In this document: positions 26,045 through 45,077 of the stretch, piece after piece
Numbering within the stretch: the first letter of the stretch is position 1
Layout of the letters: each line of letters opens with the position of its first letter
Origin: Phormidium tenue FACHB-1050
GTDB taxonomy: Bacteria; Cyanobacteriota; Cyanobacteriia; Pseudanabaenales; Pseudanabaenaceae
Reading direction: 5' to 3'
DNA length: 64,000 nucleotides
NCBI RefSeq assembly: GCF_014696925.1
Contig: NZ_JACJQY010000002.1
Location: 124,001-188,000, forward strand
Made by a program: the position numbers and the translations under genes
The notes under the pieces: model-generated
What the model was told of the DNA's origin: nothing
Database searches by the model: none
Seen by the model: the letters and a program-made list of their open reading frames with translations, nothing else

Positions 26045-26421
26045 AAAGAATTACGCCAGTAGTTCTGCACTTAAGTGCGATACTCAAAGCTCAAACCCGT
26101 TGCAACGGGTTAATTAATATAATTACAAAGCAAAACCCGTAAGGTTGCGCCCCTGCGGGGCGCAACCTTACGGGTTTTGCTTTGTAATTAGTATTCTGTA
26201 GTCCACTTCAGTGGACTTGAGCTTTTAGCCAAGAACTTGAGTTCTTGGTTTATTTGCTTCGCGATCGCTAGACGTAGTTTATGCTCAAATTTTAATTAAG
26301 TGGAAATCTAATCCTGATAAGTATTTTAACTAAATCTTAACTATTTTGAACGCACGAAATATAATGTGAATAATTTTATAATGTGAATAATTTTAAAAAA
26401 GTTTTTACTTTCGGAGTCTAA
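26045..26421. other. 377-base gap with stacked small palindromes
   Basis: The gap holds AACCCGTTGCAACGGGTT at about 26095-26111, the long palindrome at 26120-26190, a GTCCACTTCAGTGGAC hairpin near 26201-26216, and AAGAACTTGAGTTCTT near 26231-26246. The last 120 bases are AT-rich and precede the next gene. No ORF is visible. Confidence 0.6.
26120..26190. repeat. 71-bp near-ideal palindrome
   Basis: A 34-bp perfect stem, from TAATTACAAAGCAAAACCCG inward to GGTTGCGCCCC, closes on a TGC loop. It does not share ends with the TATAGC families. It may be a REP-like element or a structured RNA end. Confidence 0.75.
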
Positions 26422-33486: not shown

Positions 33487-33579
33487 TATAGCAATCCCAA
33501 ACAAATCACCAAGACCTAAATTTCACAACAATAGACTTAAATAAATTGTGTTTCTTACAAATGAATTAGGATTACTATA
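33487..33579. repeat. TATAGCAATCC-family element, AT-rich interior
   Basis: The ends are TATAGCAATCCCAAA and ATTAGGATTACTATA, a 93-bp unit with imperfect terminal repeats. The interior lacks the GC-rich stem of the other copies. Confidence 0.6.
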
Positions 33580-33668
33580 TAGCAATCCTAAATGGTTTAT
33601 GGAATCGCACCCCTTCGGGGTGCGATTCCATAAACCCAAAAACATTCAAATGAATTAGGACTACTATA
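33578..33668. repeat. TATAGCAATCC-family element, full
   Basis: A 91-bp unit, TATAGCAATCCTAAATGG to TGAATTAGGACTACTATA, with a central stem GTTTATGGAATCGCACCCC around TTC. It overlaps its left neighbour by TA and is followed at 33667 by another tatagtaatccta start, so at least three units are stacked. Confidence 0.7.
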
Positions 33669-33719
33669 TAGTAATCCTAATTCATTTGAATGTTTTTGAA
33701 GTTTGGATTTGGGGAATAT

Positions 33720-36519: not shown

Positions 36520-38874
36520 ATGTTGACACAAGATAACCAATCCAAAAACCAACCTCAAGCATTGAACAATAATAGCGACAACACTAATGACAATGCTGAA
36601 GTTATTAGTCAGCCAGAGGTGATTTCCCTAGAAAATTTACTAGAAGAAGTTCCAGCCAATCCGCAAGATCAAAAGCCAAAAAAATGGGGATGGGGATGGC
36701 GATCGCTATCTTTGCGATCTAAATCCACAATTCTGGCGATTATGATTGGCTCATTTCCTGTATTGCTGGTCGGAATTGCAGGATATTTAATTGCTGACAA
36801 TACTGTGACAACAAAGGTGAGGACTAGTCACACACAGGCTTCTATTTCAACGGCAGACAAAATATCTAGATTTATGTTTGAACGTTATGGTGACGCACAG
36901 GTGTTGGCAAATCTTCCAATTTTTACTGACCCTAGGGTGCGAAAAATTTATAGTACGGCTGAGCGTTCAGAAATCCTAACAAAATATGCCGAGAACTATG
37001 GAGTTTACGACAGTATTGCCGTATTTGATTTGCAGGGTAATACTCTTGTACAGATGCGTGGTGGAACCCCTATTAGTAACTACAGTGATCGTCCATACTT
37101 CCAAGAAGCAATCAAGACTGGAAAGGCGGTTCTCAACCCACCCACGGTATCGAAGTCTTCAGGCAAGGTCTCTATTGAAATTGCTGCCCCAATTAGAGAT
37201 ACTGAAACTAATCAAATCATCGGGGCGTTGCGAACTCGTATTCCTGTTAAAGTCATTGAGGATCTAGTCTCTGCGGCTGATAAGGATAGTGGATATAAAG
37301 TTGTTGATGCCAAAGGCATAATTTTTGTCTCTCGCGACAAAGATGTAGTTGGAAAACCTCTAAGAGAAGCCTTTGAAGGGATTGACAGTTTAATAGCCAA
37401 TAACAAGGCGGATTCTAAAACTTCTGTAAAGGCTACCGATGGGAGTTTAAAATTAGTTGGCTATGCTCCCACAAAAGAACTAACTGGATTGCCTAGCCTG
37501 AATTGGAAATTTATATTAACTGTTGACGAGGATGAGGCCTTTCAAGCAGTATCAGAGTTATCTTTGGTGTTTTTACTTGGTGGTCTAATCTCGGCTGTAG
37601 TTATAGGTGTAATCGCAGCTTGGTTAGCTAATCGCGCCGTGAAACCAATTCAAAATGCTGCTGGTGTCGTAGCTAAAATTGGAAAAGGGGATCTTGATAC
37701 TCGTCTAGAAGTTTCCAGTGAGGACGAACTAGGGATACTGTGTAGCAACATCAACAGGATGACAGAACAACTGAAGTATCTGAGTGAAGTACAGCAACAA
37801 GAAGCAGGAAGATTAGAAAATGCTCGTCAAGAAGCAAGAGCCGAAGCAGATGAACGAGCAGAACAGCAAAAACAAGAAAAAGAATTTTTGCAACGCCGTG
37901 CATTAGAGCTATTGATAGAAGTAGATCCTGTGAGCCGAGGTGACTTGACGATTCGGGCAAACGTAACTGCTGATGAGGTAGGGACGATTGCTGACTCCTA
38001 CAACGCCATTATTCGTAACTTACGGAAACTGGTACTAGATGTACAGGGTGCATCGCAGTCCGTAACCCAAACCGCTACAAGTAATGAAATGGCTGTGCGA
38101 TCGGTATCTAATGAAGCTCAGAAGCAGTCAGAGTCAATCAACTCGGCGCTACAGGAAATTCAAGTCATGGCTAAGTCAAGTCGAGGTGTAGAAACTAGAG
38201 CCAAACAAGCAGAACAAGGGATGCAGATGGCGGTGGCAGTTCTCCAAGAAGGAGACGAAGCTATGAACCGCACTGTTGAAGGGATTTCAGAAATTCGTGA
38301 GACTGTCTCGGAAACTGCGAAAAAGGTCAAACGTCTGGGTGAGACTTCGCAAAAGATTTCACGCATTGTGAACTTAATTGGTAACTTTGCAGCCCAAACC
38401 AACTTGTTAGCACTGAATGCGGCGATCGAAGCAGCCCGTGCTGGAGAGGAAGGACGAGGTTTCAGCGTCGTTGCGGAAGAGGTACGCGATCTTGCAGAAC
38501 AGTCCGCAACATCAACTGCTGAAATTGAACAGTTGGTGGAAGAGATTCAAACCCAGACTAATGAAGTGGTTGCCGCGATGGAGACTGGTACAGAGCAAGT
38601 TGTCACAGGGACAAAGCTTGTCCAAAATGCCCGTGAAAAACTAACGCAAATCGCAATGGTAAGTAAGCAGGTCAACACCATTGTTCGGGAAATTGCGATC
38701 GCGGCGGATAATCAAACCAAAACCTCCGATCGCATGGGTCAGACGATGCAAGAAGTCTCGGCGATCGCTAAGGATACATCGAAACAGTCTGAAGATGTGG
38801 CGCAATCATTCTCTGAGCTTTTGCAAGTTGCTCAAGATTTACAGGTAAGTGTATCTCAGTTCAAAGTCGCTTAA
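36520..38874 (+). CDS. Methyl-accepting chemotaxis receptor with Cache domain, PilJ-like
   Basis: The 784-residue receptor has a polar cytoplasmic N-tail (about 1-65), TM1 (about 70-95), an extracellular double-Cache region (about 100-335), TM2 (about 343-368), a HAMP domain, and a coiled coil rich in EA/QQ. A second HAMP-like unit ([14 protein letters not shown]) precedes the signalling hairpin, whose tip reads [20 protein letters not shown]. The Cache domain suggests small-molecule sensing. Unlike Synechocystis PixJ it has no GAF photosensor, so it is closer to PilJ. The start follows CGGAG. The ligand is unknown. Confidence 0.88.
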
Positions 38875-38877
38875 GTT

Positions 38878-38910
38878 TAGTCTATTCAGTGCTTTGCACT
38901 GAATAGACTA
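38878..38910 (+). terminator. Perfect hairpin between the two receptor genes
   Basis: Stem TAGTCTATTCAGTGC around TTT, starting 3 bases after the receptor stop. There is no T-run, so it may be an mRNA-processing or attenuation element rather than a full terminator, given the operon continues. Confidence 0.5.
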
Positions 38911-38943
38911 ATTAAATATTGATTCTAAGATTTAAAGAAGACT

Positions 38944-41556
38944 ATGTTAATTAAAGACAAACCAGAAATCCCTCCCTCCGAAAATCCCGAACAAATCCTA
39001 CCCAAAAGATCAATTACCCACATCTCTTTGCCAGAGAGAACTACATCTATATCTAAGCCCAAAGTTCCTTTCTGGAAATTACCAGCCCAAGCTTGGAATA
39101 ACTTGAGTGTAAGCTGGAAGTTATCGATTTTGCTATTATTAGCTTCAGGTTTACCAGTATTTGTCGTCACTCAAATCCTCGTTACATCTTCAGAACAAGC
39201 TTCTCTTAGAGAATTACGAACTTCAGTAAAGGAAAAAGGTTCGTTCTTTGTTTCAGAATATGTACTTTGGACAAACAATGAGGCTAAACAAGATGCGGAA
39301 GCGATCGCCAAAGCGATCGAGTCAAATAGTTTTGATCTCAACGATGCGACAGAGTTAGCAGCCAAACGAGCTAGCCTACAACCGTTACTGCAAGTAAGCG
39401 GCGAAGATGTTGATCCAGAATCCATTAAAAACGTGAAACTCGTTACTGATAGCCGTGGGCGCAGTATTGAAGGAAATACGCTTATTCTTGACGAAGATTT
39501 TACTAAGTTCCCATTGCTTGCACCCAAAGATCAAAAAGGTCAACTAGAACTAATTCCTCAGTTATACAAACAGGGATCAATCCCCTCTGGCAGTAATTTG
39601 GCAAATTTACCAATTGTCAAAAATGCGATCGCTACAGGTAAACCCATGTATGGCATCGAATTTGTAAAATTATCGGATTTGCAGCAATTAGGACTAGAAG
39701 CCCCTGCGAATATCGGCATTCGTGGTCAATCCACTCAAGGACTTGTGGAATCTAAGCAGCCAGCGCCCTTAGGAACTTACGAAATTGAGCAGGGTAAGTC
39801 TGGGTTGATTAGCATGGCAGTATATCCAATCAAAGTCAAAGGACGAATCGTTGGTACGGCGATAGTGGGATCGTTGCTCAACCGTAACTATGGCATCGTG
39901 GACAAATTTTCCAAACGCTACAATATTCCCACTGCAACGATTTTCGCTCAGGATTGGCGCATTACCACTAACATTCCTTACGTCGATCCCACTACCAAAA
40001 AAGCAGACAATACCAGAGCGATCGGCACGCGGTCAGCCCGTGAAGTTTCTGATGCTGTCCTCAAACAAGGAAAGGAATATGTTGGAGACACCAATATCAC
40101 AGGTGTCAACTACCTGACCTTTTACGCTCCTCTTTATGATCACCGTAAACTGATTGATGAAAATGCTAAGCCAGTTGGTATGGCTTATGTAGGTCGTCCG
40201 CTATCAGAAATTCAAGAACTTGTTGATAGCCTATCCAATGCAGGTTATACGATCGCAGGGATTTCCATTCTTATAGCTGGGGCGATCGGCATTATGGTAG
40301 CTATTTCCTTTGCACGTCCTTTACGTCTTTTGTCTAGTTTCACCAAAAAGATTGGTACTGGAGAAATAAGCGAACGTCTAACTGATGGCGATCGCCGTGA
40401 TGAAATCGGCACATTATCCCAAGAGTTAAATAACATGGCGGAACAGCTAGAAGTTCTAATTGCAGAAAAGCAACTAGAGGCAGAACGCATTGTTGAAGCC
40501 AAACAGGAAGCTACTCAGACTGAAGCAGAGCTACGCATACAAGAACAGAGACAAGCCACAGAGTTTCTCCAAAAACGAGCTTTGGAATTGCTGATTGAAG
40601 TTGATCCTCTCAGTCGAGGTGACTTAACAATTCGCGCTACGGTAACAGAAGATGAAATTGGCACAATTGCTGACTCCTATAATGCCACCATTAGAAACCT
40701 TCGTAAGCTTGTAATAGAAGTTCAATCCGCCTCTCAGTCTGTATCTCAAACTGTTTTGCAGAATCAACCGACTATGCAAAACGTATCCGATGCAGCCACA
40801 GAGCAGGTAGTGGCGATCAATCAAACCCTTGAACGTATCCAAATACTCACCGAATTGATCGCAGGTGTAGAGATGCGTGCTGTTCAAGCTGAAGCACAAG
40901 TGGAATCAGCAAACCAAGCATTGCTTGAAGGTGATGCGGCTATGAATAGTACCGTTGAAGGTTTCACCGCAATTCGGGAAACCGTGTCAGAAACTGCCGA
41001 AAAAGTGCAGCAATTGGGAGAAGCTTCACAGAAGATCTCCAAGGTCGTCAAACTGATTAGTGGCTTTGCTAGCCAGACAAATATGCTCGCACTAAATGCT
41101 TCCATTGAAGCTGCAAGGGCTGGAGAAGAAGGTCAAGGCTTTGGAGTAGTTGCCAACGAAGTACGAGCGCTTGCTCAACGCTCAGCAAAGGCTACCACTG
41201 AAATTCGGCAATTGATCGAAGAAATTCAAGCGCAGGTTAATGATCTGGTCAAAGCGATGGCTATCGGGACAAAACAAGTGAATAGTGGTTCACAATTGGT
41301 TGAAGAAACTCGCCAAAAACTGACCGATATTTCGGCATCCAGTCAACAGGTTAACCAACTAGTAAAAGAAATTGCTCAAGCCGCCGCTTTGCAATCACAG
41401 ACATCGGATCAAGCCACCCAAACAATTCAAAACGTGGCAACGATCGCTACTTCTAACTCTAGTTATGCCCAAAACCTGAATGACGCTTTTAGTGAGTTAC
41501 TCCAAGTTGCGGAAGCATTGCAAGTGAGTGTCGCTCAGTTTAAAGTCAACGCTTAG
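38944..41556 (+). CDS. Second methyl-accepting receptor with large extracellular Cache region
   Basis: The 870-residue receptor has a proline-rich cytoplasmic N-tail, TM1 (about 58-80), a large extracellular domain (about 85-425, single-Cache type by pattern), TM2 (about 435-458), HAMP, coiled coil, a second HAMP-like stretch and the signalling tip [20 protein letters not shown]. Its cytoplasmic half is closely related to the upstream receptor: both have [12 protein letters not shown] or [12 protein letters not shown] followed by SRGDLTIRA. The extracellular domains are unlike each other. This indicates duplication of the signalling half with exchange or divergence of the sensor. Confidence 0.87.
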   Translation: MLIKDKPEIPPSENPEQILPKRSITHISLPERTTSISKPKVPFWKLPAQAWNNLSVSWKLSILLLLASGLPVFVVTQILVTSSEQASLRELRTSVKEKGSFFVSEYVLWTNNEAKQDAEAIAKAIESNSFDLNDATELAAKRASLQPLLQVSGEDVDPESIKNVKLVTDSRGRSIEGNTLILDEDFTKFPLLAPKDQKGQLELIPQLYKQGSIPSGSNLANLPIVKNAIATGKPMYGIEFVKLSDLQQLGLEAPANIGIRGQSTQGLVESKQPAPLGTYEIEQGKSGLISMAVYPIKVKGRIVGTAIVGSLLNRNYGIVDKFSKRYNIPTATIFAQDWRITTNIPYVDPTTKKADNTRAIGTRSAREVSDAVLKQGKEYVGDTNITGVNYLTFYAPLYDHRKLIDENAKPVGMAYVGRPLSEIQELVDSLSNAGYTIAGISILIAGAIGIMVAISFARPLRLLSSFTKKIGTGEISERLTDGDRRDEIGTLSQELNNMAEQLEVLIAEKQLEAERIVEAKQEATQTEAELRIQEQRQATEFLQKRALELLIEVDPLSRGDLTIRATVTEDEIGTIADSYNATIRNLRKLVIEVQSASQSVSQTVLQNQPTMQNVSDAATEQVVAINQTLERIQILTELIAGVEMRAVQAEAQVESANQALLEGDAAMNSTVEGFTAIRETVSETAEKVQQLGEASQKISKVVKLISGFASQTNMLALNASIEAARAGEEGQGFGVVANEVRALAQRSAKATTEIRQLIEEIQAQVNDLVKAMAIGTKQVNSGSQLVEETRQKLTDISASSQQVNQLVKEIAQAAALQSQTSDQATQTIQNVATIATSNSSYAQNLNDAFSELLQVAEALQVSVAQFKVNA

Positions 41557-41612: not shown

Positions 41613-44600
41613 ATGTACAGTACAGAAACAGAAATTCACGATCAAGCCTATCAATTTTTCATGCAAGAAGCGCCTGAATTTTTGCAGACAATTGAGATGG
41701 GGTTGCTTTCTCTACGTGAAGACCGAAGTACTGCGAATATTCACGCGATTATGCGTGCTGCTCACTCCATTAAGGGAGGCTCAGCAAGTCTTAACTTTGA
41801 AGGCATTAAAACCGTCGCCCATCAATTAGAAGATGTCTTCCGATCGCTATATCGTTTTGAAGGCGAGATTGATGCGGATGTAGAAGGCTTGTTGTTACAG
41901 GCTTACGACTGTTTGCGTCTACCATTAATGGAGCAACTGCAATCAGGGCGTTACGATTCGGCAGAGGCGATCGCTGCTGCCGAACCTATATTTGAAGTGC
42001 TGAAGCTCTATTTGGGTGATACGGATGAAGATGTTGAATTACCGACAGCAGCCGAGTTAGGCGTAGATATCGTGCAGATCGTTTTTGAAGGCGATGTCCA
42101 ACAGGGAATTGTACGGTTGCAAAATGTCCTTGCTAACCCCGAAGGCGTACCTGTGACAGGGGAAATTCGAGCGCAAATAGAAGTATTTAGCGGCATTGGC
42201 GAACTGTTAAATTTATCTGGATTTAAAGCGATCGCCCAAGCGACATTAGAGGCTCTCGAACATAATCCTGATAAGCCCATCTTGGTAGGAAAAGTAGCGA
42301 TCGCTAATTTTGAGACAGCCCGTGCTGAAGTTTTGGCAGGCGATCGCGCTCAAGGTGGTCAACTTAGTCCAGAGTTAATCGCCCTAACAAAATCCCCATC
42401 TCCCCATGCTCAAACTGATAAAGCTCAAGCAAATCAGACGTTAAAGATAGCAACTTTATCCGAAGAATCTCCTTTTGAGATGGAGTTTGATAATGCTGAT
42501 GATTGGTTTCTATCTTTAGAACAGGAACTAAGTGAAACTAAATTTCCAGATTCTCAATCAGAGCCGCAAACAGAAACTCAAAGCAAAATTCAAATAAATA
42601 CTCCAGAAGATTTAATCTCAGATAGTTTAGCTGATGATTTTCTAGAAATAAGTCCAGAAATAAATATAGAGCCGAGCTTAAATTTGTTCGCAGATAGTCA
42701 AGGATTGTCTCGTTTCGATGATATTGATATTTCCTCAATTAATTCAGAATTATGGAATCCAAAAACAGAACCCGATAGCATTGATGTTGACATTGATGCC
42801 GTTGACATTGATGACTTTGCTGATGTAGATATTGATCAACTAGATCTACAATACTTAGATCAACTAGATCAAAATTTTGATATTTTTTCCACTTCATCAG
42901 AAGTACTATCAAATTTAGACGACGACACAGGGAACCTTGGAAAAAATGATTTTAATGATCTTGATAATTCCGATATATCGGAATTATCAAGATCATTAAA
43001 ATCACCAAAATCTTCATTAACCGAATTAACTGATCAACAAAATTCTTTTCCATTGGCTAAGTCCGCCCAAGATCCCAAAGCGACATTAGCTAATTACGCT
43101 CCCAAAAAAACTGCCCCTATTCCTACAACCGTCACTCCTTCTATTGCCGAAACCATCCGAGTTGATTTGCCTAGATTAGACCGATTAAATAATTTCTCTA
43201 GTGAATTAGTAACGCAAGAGAATGCATCGATTCTTCAAAATCAGCAACTTCAATCTAAAATTGAACGCATTCAAAAGCAGTTCCAAAGCTTTGATCAACT
43301 TTCAAAAAATCTGCAAACTTGGCTGGATAAAGCGCAGCGATCGCAAGTTAGAACCCAAGAGCTAACTGTAGATTCTTCGCAACTTGATACTATTCCCACC
43401 AACTTTTCAGCTTCGGCAGGTCTACTAGCAGACTTCGATCCATTACAGATGGATTCCTATGGTCATCTGCATAGCTTTGTCCAAGAAGCGCTCGAAGATA
43501 TCGCGCAAATGGATGAAGGAATGCGCGACATGAAGGTTTTAATGCAACAGACGCAGCAAACTCAAAGACGCAAACAGCAAATCCTCAAGCAATTACGGTA
43601 TGACCTCTTGTGGTCAAGGATGTTGCCCTTGGGCGATATCCTTAGCAGCTTGCCGCGCATGGTGCGGGAGATGTCCAATAAATATAACAAGCAAGTCAAT
43701 CTAAAACTATTTGGTACAGGTACATTAGTTGATAAATCTGTACTAGAAAAACTTTATGATCCCTTTGTACATTTAGTTCGCAATGCTTTCGATCATGGTA
43801 CTGAGTCCACTCAAAAACGTCTAGAACTCGGTAAGCCTGTGATTGCAAGCATTGAAATTCGCGCCTATTATCGCGGTAATCAAACCTATATCGAAATTAA
43901 AGATGATGGTCAGGGGCTTAACCCTGAGAATATTAAAGCAAAGGCGATCGCAACTGGTTTATTGGAATTAGAAAAAGCAGATCAGATTACTAATGAAGAT
44001 CTCTATCAGTTTTTATTCGAGCCTAGTTTTTCGACAGCAGAAGTCGTTTCGGAACTGTCAGGTCGGGGCATGGGGCTGTCAACTGTCCAAGAACAAGTCC
44101 GCAGCCTGAAGGGATCAATTGAAATCAAGTCAGAAGTAGGGCAAGGTACGACTTTTACAATTAAACTACCGCTCACTTTGAGTATTGCCAAGCTGATGAT
44201 CTTTAGCATTCAAGAGCGATTATTAGCGATCGCGATCGATACTTTGCTAGGAATTATCCCCATTGATGCTAATGAAGTACAAATCATCCAAGGCAAAAAG
44301 TTTTACCGTTTTGAAGATCGGTTGATTCCCCTATATTCCACCGACCTCTTCGCAGATGGTTATCCATTACCCAAACAATCCCAAGACATATTTAATATCG
44401 AATCATTCACCGAAGAAAACCAGATCATTTTGTTGCTATTTGCCGATGGCGATCAAGTTATGGCGCTACCGATAGATCGTGTACTCAATGAGCAGGAATT
44501 GGCAATTAAGCCGTTTGGCAAAGCGATCGCGCCGCCCCCCTATCTTTATGGTTGTACCGTATTGGGCAATGGCACACTTGTACCTGTCATCGACGCTTCA

Positions 44601-45077
44601 GCTTTGTTTTCGCTTAAGCAATCATCCCATGAAGCTAAGGGAGAGTATTTGTCTACTAGTAATGCTAGTTCTACCCCAACATTAGTAGAGTCGAAACCAA
44701 AACTAATCCAAAGAAAAACGCTCTTGATTGTGGATGATTCGCTCACAGCTCGCCAATCACTTTATCTGACTTTAGAAAAGTTTGGTTATCAAGTACTCCA
44801 AGCAGGGGATGGACGTGAGGCGATCGAGCAACTTGCGAGATCCTCTGAAATTAAAGCTGTATTGTGTGATGTGGAAATGCCTAACATGAATGGGTTTGAA
44901 TTCTTAGCATTCTGTCGTAAAGAGCCTCGCTACTTAAATATCCCCATTGTGATGCTTACTTCTCGCAGTGGAGCTAAACATCGTGGTGTTGCTCAAATGC
45001 TTGGAGCTTCAGGATATCTCACCAAACCCTATCTAGAGCAAGAACTAATCAAAACTATTCAAACTCTCCTCGTATAG
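41613..45077 (+). CDS. Hybrid CheA-like kinase, PilL/PixL type (Hpt, HATPase, CheW, REC)
   Basis: The 1154-residue kinase has an Hpt domain at the N-terminus with His51 in AAHSIKGGSAS. A second helical Hpt-like region (about 145-235) lacks the His motif. A long acidic, low-complexity linker covers about 270-500. The ATPase domain (about 680-870) has HLVRNAFDHGTE, IKDDGQGLNP and GRGMGLSTV. A CheW domain (about 870-1015) and a receiver (about 1035-1150, Asp in VLCDVEMPN, Lys in LTKPYL) follow. It is the central kinase of the operon and should phosphorylate the PATAN-REC and CheY-like proteins. The linker contains a perfect 58-bp palindrome at 42947-43004. Confidence 0.9.
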   Translation: MYSTETEIHDQAYQFFMQEAPEFLQTIEMGLLSLREDRSTANIHAIMRAAHSIKGGSASLNFEGIKTVAHQLEDVFRSLYRFEGEIDADVEGLLLQAYDCLRLPLMEQLQSGRYDSAEAIAAAEPIFEVLKLYLGDTDEDVELPTAAELGVDIVQIVFEGDVQQGIVRLQNVLANPEGVPVTGEIRAQIEVFSGIGELLNLSGFKAIAQATLEALEHNPDKPILVGKVAIANFETARAEVLAGDRAQGGQLSPELIALTKSPSPHAQTDKAQANQTLKIATLSEESPFEMEFDNADDWFLSLEQELSETKFPDSQSEPQTETQSKIQINTPEDLISDSLADDFLEISPEINIEPSLNLFADSQGLSRFDDIDISSINSELWNPKTEPDSIDVDIDAVDIDDFADVDIDQLDLQYLDQLDQNFDIFSTSSEVLSNLDDDTGNLGKNDFNDLDNSDISELSRSLKSPKSSLTELTDQQNSFPLAKSAQDPKATLANYAPKKTAPIPTTVTPSIAETIRVDLPRLDRLNNFSSELVTQENASILQNQQLQSKIERIQKQFQSFDQLSKNLQTWLDKAQRSQVRTQELTVDSSQLDTIPTNFSASAGLLADFDPLQMDSYGHLHSFVQEALEDIAQMDEGMRDMKVLMQQTQQTQRRKQQILKQLRYDLLWSRMLPLGDILSSLPRMVREMSNKYNKQVNLKLFGTGTLVDKSVLEKLYDPFVHLVRNAFDHGTESTQKRLELGKPVIASIEIRAYYRGNQTYIEIKDDGQGLNPENIKAKAIATGLLELEKADQITNEDLYQFLFEPSFSTAEVVSELSGRGMGLSTVQEQVRSLKGSIEIKSEVGQGTTFTIKLPLTLSIAKLMIFSIQERLLAIAIDTLLGIIPIDANEVQIIQGKKFYRFEDRLIPLYSTDLFADGYPLPKQSQDIFNIESFTEENQIILLLFADGDQVMALPIDRVLNEQELAIKPFGKAIAPPPYLYGCTVLGNGTLVPVIDASALFSLKQSSHEAKGEYLSTSNASSTPTLVESKPKLIQRKTLLIVDDSLTARQSLYLTLEKFGYQVLQAGDGREAIEQLARSSEIKAVLCDVEMPNMNGFEFLAFCRKEPRYLNIPIVMLTSRSGAKHRGVAQMLGASGYLTKPYLEQELIKTIQTLLV
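42947..43004. repeat. 58-bp perfect palindrome inside the CheA-like gene
   Basis: Two 29-bp arms meet without a loop at CGATATATCG. The outer ends are TGATTTTAATGATC and its complement. It is in frame and codes part of the acidic linker (from NDFNDLDNSD to SELSRSLKSP). I checked pairing base by base; the first mismatch is 42946/43005. Confidence 0.9.

Follow-up and report, generated by a model that had tools for sequence, protein, structure and literature searches.

Introduction

Quasipalindrome-associated template switching in Escherichia coli makes an imperfect inverted repeat perfect, or more nearly so, with the other arm used as the template, as described in the sections of PMC7202029 considered here. 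In yeast genes, homogenisation of the arms of inverted repeats has been documented for arm lengths of 7-16 bp (Table 1 in the part of PMC8604942 considered), and the mitochondria of Nematomorpha contain numerous coding palindromes of up to 284 bp, for which repeat conversion is considered by the authors in the excerpted text of PMC6649704. Template switching has also been reported to create and maintain RNA hairpins in RNA genes, with perfect stems and multi-base compensatory changes (PMC8794818, in the passages drawn on here).

The locus described in this study is a perfect palindrome within a cheA-type gene of the cyanobacterium Phormidium tenue FACHB-1050 (Pseudanabaenaceae), a strain assigned here to the genus Pseudanabaena. 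Judged from the portions of these papers mentioned above, it resembles the E. coli mutations (PMC7202029) in that the changes in cheA appear to be templated by the opposite arm, but it differs from them in its 29-bp arms, the lack of a spacer, its occurrence in a natural coding sequence of a sequenced strain, and apparently two tracts of opposite direction. The present data share with the yeast cases (PMC8604942) a coding sequence, a substitution cluster that includes neighbouring amino acids, and loop inversions, whereas the arms in cheA are 29 bp long instead of 7-16 bp and the host is a bacterium. Perfect inverted repeats within genes are common to Nematomorpha mitochondria (PMC6649704) and to cheA; however, the latter belongs to a bacterial genome in which hairpins lie mostly between genes. 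The mechanism considered here for a perfect stem is the same as that in the RNA-gene cases (PMC8794818), although cheA is a protein gene without a shown RNA function. The class of mutation is already known, and it is the size, the bacterial coding position and the setting that are unusual. Among the matches listed in our literature search, drawn mostly from papers outside subscription, no report of palindromes of this kind in Pseudanabaena was found, and the genus is unmentioned in the sections considered of PMC10434271 and PMC13289151.

A perfect palindrome in the CheA linker

The window (the whole stretch of 64,000 nucleotides that was analysed) contains on its plus strand a CheA-type hybrid kinase open reading frame at 41613..45077, which encodes 1154 amino acids with Hpt, H-kinase_dim, HATPase_c, CheW and Response_reg domains. 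As originally predicted, a 58-bp palindrome without a spacer is present inside this frame: positions 42947-43004 form two 29-nt arms that are 100% complementary with a spacer of 0 nt. The left arm (42947..42975, plus strand) encodes (N)DFNDLDNSD(I) and the right arm (42976..43004, plus strand) encodes (I)SELSRSLKS, and at the centre lies a self-complementary core, GATATATC (42972..42979, no strand assigned). The palindrome is in frame and falls in the linker between the Hpt domain (residues 13-93) and the dimerisation domain (residues 513-568), and the reading frame of cheA is open and of full length despite it. The longest perfect inverted repeat of the window is a different one, with 34-bp arms at 26120-26190; the cheA palindrome is the longest among those lying at least 60 bp inside an open reading frame of at least 200 amino acids in the 768 kb sampled from this genome. 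A search of the genome (5.63 Mb) with a 76-base query found the palindrome in single copy, the other match at E <= 0.001 being its own reverse strand. In another part of the window (33558-33698), several overlapping inverted repeats were observed (41-bp arms, 88%; 31-bp arms, 97%).

A chance origin had been judged very unlikely, and two controls bear this out. Palindromes with arms of at least 12 and loops of at most 10 nucleotides numbered 131 in 304 kb of real sequence and 0 in the random control, which consisted of one Markov-1 copy for each of the 13 stretches sampled. The 14 observed differences were also placed at random on the L004 segment, with three bases dropped so that the arms came into register; in 300,000 placements, the run of contiguous pairs never exceeded 13 and the number of paired positions never exceeded 21/29.

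Comparison with cheA orthologs

In the gene tree, the cheA of this strain pairs with that of L005 and then with L004 (bootstrap 100), and L004 is the closest by identity, its linker being ~79% identical. The linker setting assigned to the palindrome was confirmed as a fast-evolving one, with 70% amino acid identity to L004 over residues 281-510 and ~91% outside. Both arms are co-linear with homologous sequence of the relatives in protein and codon alignments. L004 reads TGACTTCAATGATTTTGATGCAGTATCCGATA followed by TATCTGAATTATCTAGTTTCTTTGAATCT, and the counterpart in the window is TGATTTTAATGATCTTGATAATTCCGATA followed by TATCGGAATTATCAAGATCATTAAAATCA; the segment has one codon fewer here than in either L004 or L005. 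This difference lies at the AAT tract (42966..42968, plus strand), whose place is taken by six bases in L004 (GCAGTA) and in L005 (ACCGCA), and the AAT is the reverse complement of the L004/L005 right arm.

A comparison of the linker with close relatives had been proposed in the original prediction. The core GATATATC, which encodes a conserved (S/T)DIS block, is common to the six nearest orthologs (L004, L005, L006, L007, L015 and L016), and an imperfect inverted repeat with this core palindrome and partly paired arms is found at the same place in L004, L005 and L015. The perfect arms, on the other hand, are not shared by these three, in which 7, 7 and 9 of the 13 inner pairs and 7, 5 and 7 of the 16 outer pairs are matched, respectively, and in L004 and L005 the outer arms are offset from each other by 3 nt. 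Put in register, 13/29 pairs are mismatched in L004 versus 29/29 complementary pairs in the window.

The outer parts of the two arms differ in their relation to the relatives. In the left arm, 13 of the outermost 16 nt agree with the left arm in each of L004, L005 and L015. The outermost 16 nt of the right arm resemble these relatives' left arm, read as its reverse complement (13/16 positions in each), more closely than their right arm (9/16 in L004, 6/16 in L005 and 7/16 in L015). A search with the linker likewise returned a minus-strand match to the left region of L004 (82%, E 3.4e-4). With pairs counted from the centre and polarity judged against extant relatives, the right arm has changed with respect to both L004 and L005 at pairs 5, 14, 17, 19, 20, 23 and 29, with respect to L004 only at pair 24, and with respect to L005 only at pairs 15, 16, 25 and 27. 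Changes in the left arm are found at pairs 8, 9, 16 and 26 versus both relatives, at pairs 10 and 23 versus L004, and at pairs 5 and 28 versus L005; pair 26 is ambiguous, the T being already present in L015-L017. The changes are clustered, and every one of them ends as the complement of the opposite arm.

At the protein level, LSSFFES of L004 is replaced by LSRSLKS in the right arm, altering four residues, and FDAV by LDN in the left arm. The FF motif, which 11 of the 20 further orthologs in the alignment have, the six nearest among them, is gone in the window. In L006 and L007, the cheA linker contains repeats of a EEGDEVEELEKIDPF-like unit, indicating that this linker tolerates several kinds of rearrangement.

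At the linker's rate (0.099 per site multiplied by ~1.9), a 58-bp stretch should have received about ten substitutions on this branch, and the number that break the palindrome is 0. This suggests that the last event was recent relative to the branch, or that conversion is continuing. No intermediate strain was found among the relatives compared.

Proposed origin of the palindrome

On the basis of these alignments, the palindrome probably arose from a quasi-palindrome that was perfected in place by homogenisation of its arms, a reading to which we assign a probability of roughly 0.85 and which includes any route to that result, patchwise repair of a hairpin among them. The most likely route is template switching during replication on the lineage leading to the strain, probably in two tracts of opposite direction, and several amino acids were most likely rewritten at once. 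The core GATATATC, with its SDIS block, would be the likely pivot, at which a nascent 3' end pairs with the opposite arm or with the other strand. In a first tract, GAATTATC of the right arm would have been copied onto the left arm, converting six bases to AAT with the loss of one codon and leaving pairs 1-13, except pair 5, matched in the stem. In a second tract, the left arm would have been copied over the right arm, starting at pair 5 or closer to the centre and reaching pair 29. This order is suggested because the left-arm bases found in the second tract are those of the window itself, and because the first tract would lengthen the stem and so make the second more likely. Two tracts, or patchwise repair, are assumed since the inner left arm is unexplained by a single left-to-right tract. 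Against simple homogenisation, the left-arm changes at pairs 16 (T to C) and 26 (C to T) may be earlier point changes. Decay of an ancestral palindrome would require the same right arm to have arisen repeatedly, given that the gene tree joins the strain first to L005 and then to L004.

The product could also be reached if a mismatched extruded hairpin or cruciform were repaired patchwise in both directions, without polymerase template switching. Changes in both arms would be natural for such mismatch repair, which competes closely with template switching as a mechanism while leaving the result the same; still, a long hairpin could hardly form first from relatives' arms that are paired at 5-7 of the 16 outer positions with a 3-nt register shift (L004 and L005), and a long contiguous tract is better explained by copying, which leaves this route with a small but appreciable chance. 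It is much less probable that the perfect pairing was driven by selection for an mRNA hairpin or another cis function, such as attenuation, RNA stability or antisense termination. The strong mRNA hairpin envisaged in the original prediction is indeed possible in silico, the fold predicted for the sense RNA being the full hairpin at -39.5 kcal/mol (z -10.1, with 0/200 shuffles as good). In a scan for intrinsic terminators (a GC-rich stem and a T-run on the transcribed strand), however, only the minus strand scored as terminator-like, because of its T-rich tail, while the plus (sense) strand has no such site at the palindrome and the scan total was 7 sites versus 10.1 expected from shuffles. Moreover, the structure is not kept in the three relatives, as seen from the pair counts given above, and the change removed a motif present in more than half of the other orthologs. 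In these analyses, no evidence of a functional use of the palindrome was found.

A mobile palindromic element, comparable to Rickettsia palindromic elements, REP or MITE-like sequences, might instead have entered the coding linker. The genus is rich in palindromic repeats, and in three of the 13 aligned priA orthologs a single linker site is occupied by other palindromic inserts. In this genome, moreover, a palindrome with 17-bp arms inside an open reading frame (L139:1037-1070) has, by eye, the same core as one that lies between genes (C12:112985), so insertion into reading frames may occur. The cheA segment, however, has gained no length and is in fact shorter by a codon than its counterparts in L004 and L005, each of its arms has homologous sequence at the same place in the relatives, and the genome search (E <= 0.001) brought up only the site itself and its reverse strand; the in-frame lengthening and similar copies that mark Rickettsia-type coding elements were therefore both lacking, and an insertion is very improbable. 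These observations also speak against the repeat element tolerated in a linker that had been suggested earlier, and, of the recent inverted duplication put forward as its alternative, they leave the recent date, which is probably correct, and not the duplication. The least credible explanation is a fold-back chimera produced during assembly or amplification. The draft assembly consists of 89 contigs and palindromes are hard to sequence, but the site is interior to a 258-kb contig, the reading frame is open, both arms carry changes, and an 8.8-kb in-order alignment with a relative spans the site, where a fold-back would have put the reversed left flank at the right. Homogenisation of a pre-existing quasi-palindrome, with the outcome best explained as a mutational scar in a tolerant linker and not as a regulatory device, accounts for these data, and the scar would be nearly neutral.

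Perfect hairpins in the genome and genus

Perfect hairpins, defined by arms of at least 12 and loops of at most 10 nucleotides, are abundant in this genome, with 374 in 768 kb (4.87 per 10 kb), 185 of which have arms of at least 20. The earlier remark that such DNA is usually unstable fits badly with this number. A similar density was found in G022 (307 in 680 kb, or 4.51 per 10 kb), and samples of other genomes of the genus ranged from 4.90 (G005) and 4.40 (G008) to 2.00 (G002) and 1.62 (G023) per 10 kb. Three other genera of the family had 0 hairpins in 60 kb each, and one genome of the class had 3 in 60 kb. In a comparison set of 63 loci (L046-L108), mostly from other cyanobacteria with 5 loci from other bacteria (non-cyanobacterial by record title), 9 hairpins were counted in 511 kb, 0 of them with arms of at least 20; this set is centred on cheA-like genes and slightly more coding (90% vs 85%). 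Based on mechanical ORF sets, hairpins at least 60 bp inside open reading frames of at least 200 amino acids accounted for 7/374 in the strain, 5/307 in G022 and 0/9 in the comparison set, and those compared with relatives were two of the seven (cheA and priA) and one of the five, respectively. The intergenic hairpins often have 3-nt loops and belong to a few sequence families (AAAACCCAA...GGCGGCGC and others).

In E. coli, SbcCD cleaves palindromes and ExoVII suppresses quasi-palindrome mutations. SbcD was detected over the cut-off in 55 of the 58 genomes searched, including 26/26 of the genus, 25 of which have two; outside the family, 21 of 23 genomes have one copy and 2 have none. SbcC-like matches occurred in 57/58 genomes, with the curated cut-off passed in 6 and not in 52/58, and all 26 genomes of the genus have such matches, usually two, below that cut-off. 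XseA was over the cut-off in 48/58 genomes and in 26/26 of the genus. Hairpin abundance is therefore not put down to a loss of SbcCD or ExoVII, matches to SbcD, SbcC and XseA being present in every genome of the genus that was searched. The strain's own copies are located at G000:C89:34783 and C57:19507 (SbcD) and at G000:C3:115599 and C64:2219 (SbcC-like). Most genomes of the genus also have a second SbcC-like gene, which in some is adjacent to the second SbcD gene (e.g. G019:C78:8432-12584).

Possible arm homogenisation at other hairpins

The fate of other hairpins was followed in a syntenic set from which cheA was excluded: of 368 hairpins of the strain, 44 were mapped and 29 retained at an identity of at least 70%, some being doubtful near this limit. 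At these 29 hairpins, 22 pairs had changed on both sides and were still pairing versus 2 that had changed on both sides and were non-pairing; 522 pairs were unchanged, 7 fell on gaps, and 82 had changed on one side, a class inflated by the choice of hairpins for perfection in the strain's own genome. With 82 one-side changes beside 22 paired ones, the evidence for recurrence is mixed, and selection on RNA stems could contribute to the paired changes between genes. In 31 comparisons, the loops were exactly inverted in 5 (four 3-nt and one 1-nt), the same in 13, different in another way in 11 and absent in 2; orientation flips of a repeat would also explain loop inversion. One example lies upstream in the same cluster as cheA, where an intergenic hairpin (38877..38911, no strand assigned) between the open reading frame at 36520-38874 and the MCP gene at 38944 differs in G005 by one stem pair changed on both sides and by an inverted 3-nt loop. 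In a further hairpin (L177:13541-13625), a 26-bp family hairpin has its arms extended to 41 bp into the flank; 5 outer pairs are unmatched in G022, whose outer left flank differs as if it had been overwritten in the strain's own genome from the right flank.

Within genes, a hairpin with 26-bp arms (L174:10607-10661) lies in frame in a linker of priA, a helicase by Pfam. Over its inner 17 of 26 pairs in seven orthologs without inserts or gaps (L272 included), 119 cells comprised 15 changed on both sides and paired, 4 changed on both sides and unpaired, 16 changed on one side and 84 the same, whereas control arms slid by 1-2 columns gave 0-3 cells of the first class. With 13 orthologs, including those with inserts and gaps, 221 cells were divided into 29 both-changed and paired, 17 both-changed and unpaired, 46 one-changed, 107 the same and 22 on gaps, and slid arms gave 5-12 paired; the effect persists but is weaker. 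At the same priA linker site, three other species have different palindromic inserts of the CTCTCCC...GGGAGAG type. A coding palindrome in thiL of G022 (L148:7665-7712; 23-bp arms, 2-nt loop, AIRS domains) has a conserved right arm beside the SGMDSSDG motif, which by eye was apparently copied onto the variable left arm in both G022 and the present strain, and matched arm variants were seen, also by eye, in G005 and G006. The cheA palindrome itself displays gain only, and arms that co-vary are seen in priA and, by eye, in thiL. These alignments suggest that arm homogenisation recurs in the genus, within genes as well as between them.

Implications for the genus

The cheA palindrome offers a large and clean example of how template switching may rewrite a bacterial protein in few steps, and a substitution model would misread such rewriting as fast adaptive change. 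With partial support from these data, it is possible, if somewhat short of an even chance, that Pseudanabaena is a natural template-switch mutator genus, in which an unusually active hairpin-templated conversion would keep hundreds to thousands of hairpins perfect, invert their loops, spread arms into unique flanks and genes, and rewrite protein linkers in single multi-residue steps. With close species that can be compared, and with SbcCD and ExoVII genes present, the genus is suited to testing why perfect hairpins persist and stay perfect.
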